Source of the DNA: Saprospiraceae bacterium
GTDB taxonomy: Bacteria; Bacteroidota; Bacteroidia; Chitinophagales; Saprospiraceae
Direction: 5' to 3'
NCBI GenBank assembly: GCA_025055285.1
Contig: JANWXM010000034.1
Span: forward strand, 1-33,012
Length of the DNA stretch: 33,012 nucleotides
Part shown: in pieces, positions 26,859 through 29,183 of the stretch
Position numbering within the stretch: the first letter of the stretch is position 1
Layout: each line of letters begins with the position of its first letter
Position numbers and translations under genes: made by a program
The notes under the pieces: model-generated
Database searches by the model: none
What the model saw: only the letters and a program-made list of their open reading frames with translations
What the model was told of the DNA's origin: nothing

Positions 26859-27232
26859 GCGCGACAATAGGCGAACATCACCAAAAATGACTGCTGGCTG
26901 AAGCAAACGCATATAGAAACCGATTTTTCTATCCCACTTCCGTCGAGCATGCGCGCGCCTTATCAAGGAAGGAAGTAGTAGGTAGTAATTGGTGGAAATC
27001 CTGTTTTCTTGTCTTGATCGCTTCGTCTTTGGCGCCCTAGGTTCCTAGTATCAAACCTCAGTAACTGCGAAAAAGGTGTTTTTCGTTAGGTAAATGTTCA
27101 AAAGACTGCCGTTAACCAAAGGAGGAAAGAGTGCCTTTTGCTGTGCGCAGCTTAACAGTTACTTATACGTTTGTGGTAGAAAAATATCAACTTCATGGGC
27201 GATTGTCGCCTCGAAAGACTAGCGAAATACGC

Positions 27233-27240
27233 TACTTTTG
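27233..27240 (+). promoter_or_regulatory. -7 promoter box immediately before dnaX
   Basis: TACTTTTG is an exact match to TAnnTTTG and ends six bases before the dnaX ATG at 27247. Transcription from it would begin at or within a base or two of the start codon, giving a leaderless mRNA. No clear -33 TTTG is present. Confidence 0.5.
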
Positions 27241-27246
27241 TCGCGG

Positions 27247-29022
27247 ATGAGTACCTTCGTCGTATCTGCCCGAAAGTATCGGCCCCTGCGCTTTGAGGAT
27301 GTTGTGGGGCAGCAGCACGTAGCTCAAACACTAAAGAATGCCCTAGCTACGGGTCACTTAGCGCATGCTTTTCTTTTTTGCGGGCCGCGCGGCGTAGGCA
27401 AGACTACTTGTGCTCGCATCTTGGCTCGAGTACTTAATTGTGAAAATCGGACGCCAGCCTTCGAGGCGTGCCAGCAGTGTAGCTCCTGCTTAGCCTTTCG
27501 AGATGATGCCTCTTGGAATATTTTTGAGCTCGATGCTGCCTCTAACAACGGTGTAGATCATATTCGCGCTTTGGTGGAACAAGTGCGCATTCCGCCGCAA
27601 CGCGGCCAGTACAAGGTCTACATCATTGACGAAGTGCATATGCTCTCACAGGGCGCCTTCAACGCCTTTTTAAAGACTTTGGAAGAGCCGCCGCCTTATG
27701 CCGTCTTTATTTTGGCAACGACGGAAAAACACAAAATATTGCCAACCATCTTATCGCGTTGCCAAGTGTTCGACTTTCGACGCATCGAAGTGACCGACAT
27801 TGTCGCTCATTTGGCCAAAATCTGCCGGTTGGAAGGCATTCAAGCCGATGAGGAAGCTCTGCGCATTATTGCACAAAAAGCTGATGGTTCTTTGCGTGAC
27901 GCCTTGTCCATCTTCGACCGCCTTAGTAGCGCTGCGGGAGGAAGACCCATCTGCTACCAAACAGTACTAGAAAACCTCAATATCCTAGATTACGACTACT
28001 ATTTTCAAATTACCGATGCGCTGTTGAGCGAAGACACTTCGGCCGTGCTGCTCCTGTTCGACGACATTTTGCGAAAGGGCTTCGAACCTGAAATTTTTCT
28101 CACGGGACTTGCCGACCATTTGCGCAACTTACTGGTGTGCCGCGATCCGGCGACCTTGTCTCTATTAGAAGTAGGTGAAAACTTGCGCGAACGCTACCAG
28201 CAACAGGCTCAAGTAGCGTCGCTTTCATTTTTAATGACAGCCTTGTCGATAATTAACGATTGTGATGTCAACCTGAAAACAGCGCGGCACAAGCGACTGC
28301 ATGTTGAAATTGCCTTGCTTAGAATATGCTACCTGCTGCGAGCAGAATTGGTTCCTGGCTTTGCTGAAAAAAAAACGATTGATGTACCTCCATTGAGCCA
28401 TAAACTTGAGCCGTTACCGACTGCATCGGAATCACTTCCAAAAGTGCTAGCAAATTCACTGCCCAAGGCCTCAACCCAAGGAAATTTGCCTCCGTCTACC
28501 GCAACGGAGCTCAGCCCGCGCGATATGCAAGCGCTTCGTACCGACATAAAACTAGGGCGCAGGCGCATTGAAGACATCCCATTGCGATTAGACGCATTTG
28601 ACTCGGTTGTCGCAGAGGAGGCCATCCAAATAGCAAAGTTAGAGAGCCGCCTTTCGCTAGCAAACGTCTGCGCCGAATGGCAGAATTTTGCTAATACGAC
28701 ACCTTCGCCCTCGTTGCGCCAAGCTATGTCGGCTTCAGAACTTTCCCTCGAAGGAGAAAGTCTAATTGTTTACGTTGGGCTTGCTGTCCACAAAAACCTT
28801 ATTCAGGCCGAAATCAACCATCTACGCGATACCCTGCGCCGAAATCTGAATGCTCCAAAATTGAATATCCGCGTGCAACTCGACGAGCAAAGAGCCTCTG
28901 CCGTCGAATTGCCCAAGCCGCGGCGTATACTGACGGCAAAGGAAAAACTCGACCAGATGGTTCAAGCTAACCCCGCCGTACTTGACCTGCTTAAGCGCTT
29001 TGAACTAAAAATTGACGAGTAG
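27247..29022 (+). CDS. dnaX: DNA polymerase III subunit tau (gamma/tau)
   Basis: This 591-residue clamp-loader ATPase connects the replicase core to the sliding-clamp loading machinery. Domain I has Walker A GPRGVGKT (46-53), a four-cysteine zinc knuckle (Cys65, Cys75, Cys78, Cys81), Walker B VYIIDEVH (124-131) and the SRC arginine-finger motif (170-172). The lid and collar domains continue to about residue 365. A low-complexity linker (about 370-420) then leads to the tau-specific C-terminal region, which has a helical domain ending FELKIDE. The start is the ATG at 27247. A TTG three codons earlier falls inside the promoter box and is rejected. A run of nine A residues at 28367-28375, exactly at the domain III/linker junction, may generate a short gamma-like form (see separate feature). 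Confidence 0.95.
   Translation: MSTFVVSARKYRPLRFEDVVGQQHVAQTLKNALATGHLAHAFLFCGPRGVGKTTCARILARVLNCENRTPAFEACQQCSSCLAFRDDASWNIFELDAASNNGVDHIRALVEQVRIPPQRGQYKVYIIDEVHMLSQGAFNAFLKTLEEPPPYAVFILATTEKHKILPTILSRCQVFDFRRIEVTDIVAHLAKICRLEGIQADEEALRIIAQKADGSLRDALSIFDRLSSAAGGRPICYQTVLENLNILDYDYYFQITDALLSEDTSAVLLLFDDILRKGFEPEIFLTGLADHLRNLLVCRDPATLSLLEVGENLRERYQQQAQVASLSFLMTALSIINDCDVNLKTARHKRLHVEIALLRICYLLRAELVPGFAEKKTIDVPPLSHKLEPLPTASESLPKVLANSLPKASTQGNLPPSTATELSPRDMQALRTDIKLGRRRIEDIPLRLDAFDSVVAEEAIQIAKLESRLSLANVCAEWQNFANTTPSPSLRQAMSASELSLEGESLIVYVGLAVHKNLIQAEINHLRDTLRRNLNAPKLNIRVQLDEQRASAVELPKPRRILTAKEKLDQMVQANPAVLDLLKRFELKIDE
28367..28382 (+). other. dnaX: A9 slippery tract in dnaX with immediate stop in shifted frames
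   Basis: The codons GAA AAA AAA ACG contain nine consecutive A residues (28367-28375). Insertion of one A in the transcript, or a -1 ribosomal shift on the heptamer A AAA AAA, gives AAC GAT TGA, ending at 28382 and yielding a 378-residue protein. Loss of one A gives CGA TTG ATG TAC CTC CAT TGA, which also stops within seven codons. Both truncated forms keep the ATPase and collar domains and lose the tau tail. In Thermus thermophilus an A9 run in dnaX does this by transcriptional slippage, and in E. coli dnaX uses a -1 frameshift. Confidence 0.6.
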
Positions 29023-29183
29023 CCCTACCACTACTTTCTTTTCGATGCCCTCTTTGGCATTCAAAATGAAGGAAGCCTCTCCTCTGCTCACAGGGCAGTC
29101 TACACCGACTCAATGCTACTAAAAACGCACTTTAAAGCCTATAAAAGTGTGCTGGGCATGTCTACCAAACGCAGGTGCAAAGA

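Follow-up and report, generated by a model that had tools for sequence, protein, structure and literature searches.

The run of nine adenines at the junction between the core and the tail of the dnaX gene described here is very likely a programmed slippage site, on which RNA-polymerase slippage would yield both a tau-like and a gamma-like DnaX, and, judging from the sequences compared, A-run slippage in dnaX looks widespread in Bacteroidota. The window, by which we mean the whole stretch of DNA that was analysed, is 33,012 nucleotides long. We are confident that the gene is DnaX (DNA polymerase III gamma/tau); its product scored above the curated cut-offs of both NF011531 (696.2 bits against 685) and TIGR02397 (435 bits against 250) and contained the Pfam domains PF13177, PF22608, and PF12169. 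The features on which the argument rests are the following:

27250..29022, forward strand: dnaX, full-length (tau-like) frame of 590 residues, 66.0 kDa, an ORF with NCBIfam and Pfam matches
27262..28335, forward strand: clamp-loader core, domains I-III (TIGR02397 over 27262-28329; PF12169 to 28335)
28367..28375, forward strand: putative A9 slippage run, in GAA AAA AAA ACG, present as A9 or A10 in 23 of 24 genus members
28380..28382, forward strand: TGA closing the -1 frame, reached by +1A transcripts or a -1 ribosomal shift, for a product of 377 residues
28394..28396, forward strand: TGA closing the +1 frame, reached by -1A or +2A transcripts, for a product of 381 residues with -1A
28376..29019, forward strand: tau-specific tail, a variable linker and then a C-terminal part that the tail HMM recognises in relatives

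The full-length frame starts at ATG 27250, with an alternative TTG start at 27238, and closes at TAG 29020-29022. Matches to the core end at residue 360 for TIGR02397 (residues 5-360) and at residue 362 for PF12169 (residues 246-362), and the junction GAA is residue 373, which places it 13 residues past the former and 11 past the latter. Codons 373-375 read GAA AAA AAA and are followed by ACG, so the sequence-only reading was right to place nine in-frame adenines at the core/tail junction (28367-28375, 11 codons past the last core domain). After a -1 shift or the addition of one A, the frame continues AAC GAT TGA; the stop had been correctly predicted two codons on (28380-28382), although the product, given earlier as 378 residues, computes to 377 (42.4 kDa) from ATG 27250. 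Loss of one A leaves six sense codons before TGA 28394-28396, in agreement with the prediction that such a transcript ends within seven codons, and the predicted product is 381 residues (43.0 kDa). The tau tail of this gene is made only when the frame is kept. A PHROGs search of the tail added nothing.

In the mechanism that we propose, RNA polymerase would slip on the nine As during transcription of dnaX, and the resulting pool of transcripts would vary in its number of As. Transcripts with 9 (or 9 ± 3) As would be translated into the 590-residue tau-like protein, and the others would meet a nearby off-frame stop, with a gamma-like product of about 377-381 residues, namely the clamp-loader core without the tail. 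From the sequences we infer slippage, its occurrence at the level of transcription, and a use for the short protein.

As a word, A9 is expected about once in a window of this kind: the dinucleotide content predicts 1.12 occurrences and one was found. We therefore rejected the notion that A9 is a rare word by itself, and the evidence lies in its position and conservation. A pattern search of the source genome, with retrieval of the matching stretches, returned 45 other runs of nine or more A or T, of which 40 lay outside any ORF of at least 100 aa. Among the five located in ORFs, only one was a run of A on the coding strand, and that run, as read from the translation, seems to precede the true start of its gene.

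Conservation within the genus was assessed in 24 dnaX genes, one of them that of the window; G014, represented by a fragment only, was left out. Glu-Lys-Lys was encoded at the junction in all 24, and the run was A9 in 22, A10 in one, and an interrupted A7 in one (G010), with GAA AAA AAA and a following A in 23 of the 24. The linker flanking the run varied in both length and sequence. A stop closed the -1 frame at the same place in each of the 23 members with A9 or A10 (TGA in 22 and TAA in one). Alignment with relatives, the check proposed by the sequence-only reading, thus found the A run kept in 23/24 genes and the -1-frame stop in 23/23, rather than the AAG-encoded Lys-Lys that it had held would count against slippage. 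Elsewhere in these genes AAG made up 25% of Lys codons and GAG 33% of Glu codons, which gives GAA AAA AAA for Glu-Lys-Lys a chance of 0.38 per gene (Lys AAA 0.75, Glu GAA 0.67), a value that was not multiplied over the genus because the genes are related. Codon usage of this sort (AAA for 75% of genus Lys codons), together with the expectation of about one A9 per window, could be read as favouring a different account, which we consider very improbable, in which the run is kept for its linker lysines or A-rich codons, the stops are there by coincidence, and full-length DnaX is the one form that matters. In the exceptional gene, G010 (L012, near locus position 2600), the interrupted run is soon followed by a 0-frame TGA, with the tail encoded in the +1 frame, reflecting either a real change or an assembly (MAG) error.

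The survey beyond the genus comprised 374 dnaX loci (371 distinct), 294 of them from whole genomes at every level from genus through family, order, and class to phylum and 80 from named records. Three genome searches found dnaX in 117/119, 117/119, and 116/118 genomes, and the 374 loci are a subset of all the matches obtained, taken best-scoring first and supplemented by chosen ones; L001 and L040 were dropped as repeats, and three more pairs are duplicates, hence the two totals. In each locus we scored the longest stretch of A in the 300 nt past core position 355. Locus L010 ends at the end of its contig, yet was scored as having no run in the counts based on 374, 371, and 237 genes, and was left out only of the tree count of run and no-run states.

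Runs of A9-A13 were found near the junction in 301 of the 371 distinct Bacteroidota genes (304/374 loci). At class level and below the count was 208/237 genes, and 63 of the 73 family codes had such a run in one or more genes. These counts are non-independent, since the species surveyed include close neighbours. The runs of at least nine As began at a median of 20 codons past core position 355 and at 61 codons at the farthest. Named examples included Aureispira, Pedobacter, Mucilaginibacter, Hymenobacter, Chitinophaga, Aquimarina, and Flagellimonas, and the best-scoring named dnaX among the matches listed was that of Aureispira (Saprospiraceae).

The distribution of run lengths was sharply bounded from below. 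Across the 374 loci, the junction run was A9 in 88, A10 in 195, A11 in 18, A12 in two, and A13 in one; shorter runs were A8 in one, A7 in 11 (two of these twelve A7-A8 runs are over 80 codons downstream and may be unrelated), and A6 in 12, and 46 loci had no run of at least six. Of 316 junction runs with at least seven As, 304 were therefore A9-A13. Away from the junction, a count over the first 1,750 nt of these genes gave 579 A6, 216 A7, 52 A8, seven A9, and four A10, or 11 runs of at least nine in 649,817 nt. According to the accessible parts of PMC1088944 and PMC5009743, nine As or Ts support efficient slippage in vivo, and a threshold at nine fits polymerase slippage and not a heptamer. 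This bears on the main alternative, that programmed -1 ribosomal frameshifting at A AAA AAA makes the gamma-like form from faithful transcripts, which we regard as unlikely. A valid -1 heptamer, A AAA AAA, does stand in frame in the window, but seven As would be enough for it, and nearly all of the runs of seven or more reach nine.

The off-frame stops near the run point in the same direction as the preferred reading, transcriptional slippage. Among 226 genes with a continuous frame, the median distance to a stop was 2 codons in the -1 frame and 4 in the +1 frame, and the stop fell within 10 codons in every gene for the former and in 94% for the latter; the whole-ORF medians for the same frames in the same ORFs were 9 and 12 codons. 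Both stops fell within 10 codons in 212/226 of these genes, compared with 131/467 of the other runs of six or more As in the same ORFs, and in 58 genes lacking a run of at least seven, measured about 15 codons past core position 355, the medians were 10.5 and 11. That the -1-frame stop is the nearer one would also be expected from ribosomal frameshifting, which would select it as well, but the +1-frame stops are close too. Stops this much nearer than at other A runs count against a demand for lysines or codons, and Lys-Lys dipeptides elsewhere in the 374 genes were written AAAAAA in only 322 of 705 cases; on stop proximity and this codon usage, we rejected lysine demand as the sole cause.

In 78 genes, the core frame itself stopped 0-9 codons past the run, and with an HMM built from the tails of the continuous genes, a homologous tail was found out of frame in 75 of them, in the -1 frame in 68 and in the +1 frame in seven. 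The HMM gave no match in the remaining three, two of which lie near contig ends, and with these left out the tail frame was 0 in 226, -1 in 68, and +1 in seven of 301 genes. A core frame that ends at the run, with its tail out of frame, makes little sense unless the frames are mixed, which again speaks against the run serving lysines or codons only. That 68 of the 75 assigned split tails were in the -1 frame is compatible with a ribosomal shift, but a -1 shift cannot serve the seven tails in the +1 frame, two of which are in both sampled species of one genus (g31). The split state was common to entire genera (all six genes in g30 and all three in each of g82 and g111), so that sequencing error is not its general cause, although it may lie behind single cases. 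For five of the seven +1-tail genes, we know of no second sampled genome that shares the state, and two of these five belong to g150 and g4, in which the other sampled members are 0-frame; some of the +1-tail genes could thus be sequence errors. Separately, L205 has a 0-frame TAA near the junction and a +1 tail (71.6 bits with the HMM) and lacks any A run of at least six; either its slip site is another one or its assembly is wrong.

On a tree of the 301 genes, built with FastTree only, the tail frame changed at least 37 times, compared with a mean of 68.6 for shuffled labels, so that the frame is also strongly inherited; counting only genera with at least two genomes of one state, there were at least seven changes. 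Eight genus codes held more than one tail frame. We lean slightly toward the view that slippage in Bacteroidota dnaX is strong enough to make the tail frame nearly neutral, such that the run is conserved and the frame is not. If so, the gene would work with its tail in any of three frames, and lineages would drift between a form in which tau is encoded and gamma arises by slippage and one in which gamma is encoded and tau arises by slippage, including a +1-tail form that is beyond the reach of -1 ribosomal frameshifting.

Variation of the tail frame among species, and within a genus in those eight genus codes, might also suggest that the A run is a tract of DNA-level (replicative) phase variation, by which single cells toggle dnaX between long and short forms, and homopolymers are indeed prone to mutation. 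We give this reading hardly any credence, even less than the one based on lysine codons: run length was held at 9 or 10 in 283/304 junction runs of at least nine, a recognisable tail was retained in 75 of the 78 split genes, close stops in both frames are not explained by toggling alone, and losing tau should harm a cell lineage.

The surroundings of the run gave little sign of the elements that stimulate a ribosomal shift. In the window, the sequence downstream of the run (28376-28435) had a z-score of -0.46, with no clear structure, and no match to the Rfam DnaX element was obtained in 27200-29100; the earlier remark that no stem-loop is obvious therefore stands. For 300 of the 304 genes with runs of nine or more, the mean downstream z was -0.42, compared with -0.26 at a control position, and z fell below -2 in 10.7% as against 8.0% at the control, and on these scores and the lack of an Rfam match in the window a downstream hairpin as a stimulator is not supported. 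The words GGAG, GAGG, and AGGA were likewise absent from the 30 nt upstream of the run in the window, as the sequence-only reading had observed of Shine-Dalgarno-like enhancers. Among the relatives, these words were somewhat enriched directly upstream of the run, occurring in 59/304 genes as against 10-32/304 at six other offsets, a point in favour of a ribosomal shift, and given this mild enrichment a ribosomal contribution in some lineages is possible. In the same 304 junctions, G was enriched (31-40%) at positions -8 to -4. The base after the run in relatives was C in 41%, G in 35%, and T in 24%, so that G was not preferred and A AAA AAG, as a ribosomal site, was not favoured. Taken together, the threshold at nine, the tails in three frames, and the lack of clear downstream structure argue for the preference for transcriptional slippage expressed in the sequence-only reading.

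In its anatomy, as far as its sequence goes, the window gene resembles the dnaX of Thermus thermophilus in each feature compared. That gene undergoes transcriptional slippage on an A9 run (Larsen et al. 2000, as related in the accessible parts of PMC1088944 and PMC5009743), and in both genes nine As lie between core and tail, the tau frame is continuous, and stops stand nearby in the two other frames (after 2 and 6 sense codons in the window). The organisms belong to different phyla, and for Thermus, in those parts of the sources, slippage was measured and gamma is about equal to tau, whereas the present case is built from sequence; moreover, unlike in Thermus thermophilus, the short form of the window would end 15-19 residues past PF12169. 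In Escherichia coli dnaX, a -1 frameshift takes place at A AAA AAG, with an upstream Shine-Dalgarno-like element and a downstream stem-loop (accessible parts of PMC5009743 and PMC3711429). As in E. coli, gamma is predicted here to arise inside the tau reading frame, where A-rich lysine codons precede a stop, but the run of the window is followed by C (A AAA AAA ACG), with no A AAA AAG, no clear stem-loop, and no upstream Shine-Dalgarno-like element.

A third type is the two-ORF dnaX of Antonov 2013 (PMC3711429), described in the accessible text of that paper for 17 genes from 12 genera, all with -1 shifts, in 12 of which the core frame ends near an A7-A10 run. There, shifts in both directions are taken as a mark of transcriptional realignment. 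The 68 split relatives with -1-frame tails match this type, in that the core stops at the run and the tail follows in the -1 frame, an arrangement in which tau would depend on slippage; the window gene differs in having a continuous frame, and the seven relatives with +1-frame tails differ from the all -1 set in the accessible text. That text names only Chlorobi members, and the set may include some Bacteroidetes. In a literature search that covered mainly titles and abstracts, and subscription journals thinly, we found no report of dnaX slippage in Bacteroidota, of +1-frame tails, or of a phylum-wide pattern, and the accessible part of a paper on a flavobacterial endosymbiont (PMC3971599) treats dnaX only as present or absent, with no mention there of slippage. 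The slippage mechanism itself is already known, from Thermus and from the two-ORF dnaX genes of Antonov 2013; the wide extent, the labile frame, and the +1 tails appear to be additions to it.

The need for a short clamp-loader subunit outside a few model groups is an old question, and the retention of the site in most of the sampled families, along with the three frame arrangements that can stand in for one another, speaks for a need for both forms. The set of dnaX genes with tails in three frames also offers a natural series on how RNA-polymerase slippage sets a protein ratio. We further infer that split-type dnaX genes are likely to be annotated as a short DnaX with the tail missing; according to the accessible text of PMC3711429, none of the 17 genes of Antonov 2013 was annotated in RefSeq.

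A run of at least nine As was absent from 70 of the 371 genes, comprising 46 without an A run of at least six, 12 with A6, and 12 with A7-A8. By level, these were 25 from the phylum outside the class, 18 of the same class, six of the same order, four of the same family, and one of the same genus, and 16 were named records, 13 of them filed under class Bacteroidia. In such genes gamma may be dispensable or absent, or may be made otherwise.

Three loci without an A run (L204:2787, L220:3592, and L223:3592, 0-based; two labelled Bacteroidales and one Bacteroidetes, with cores 74-83% identical) have a UAG in frame at the junction, set in all three within CATAGATTGC, and a homologous tail follows it without a change of frame (70-80 bits with the tail HMM). 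This arrangement suggests readthrough of the stop codon, or reinitiation, as a further route to gamma and tau. UAG also closes some of the other long stop-to-stop frames of these loci, so that a changed genetic code is not indicated. A search for the UAG-junction pattern in 395 genomes of the class returned two matches, L436 and L437, of which L437 was rejected, as reading it showed that it is not dnaX. Four other genes without the run (L101, L105, L201, and L208, of the same class and Bacteroidaceae) have in common a peptide just past the core, roughly G-(R/H)-(S/G)-(S/P)-x-x-x-(I/L)-K-P-(V/I)-F, which from its sequence is possibly a binding motif in the linker. Lastly, the dnaX contigs of L010 (G028:C94) and L213 terminate in CTGTCTCTTATACACATCT, which looks like the Nextera mosaic-end adapter and which we take to be untrimmed adapter in public assemblies.
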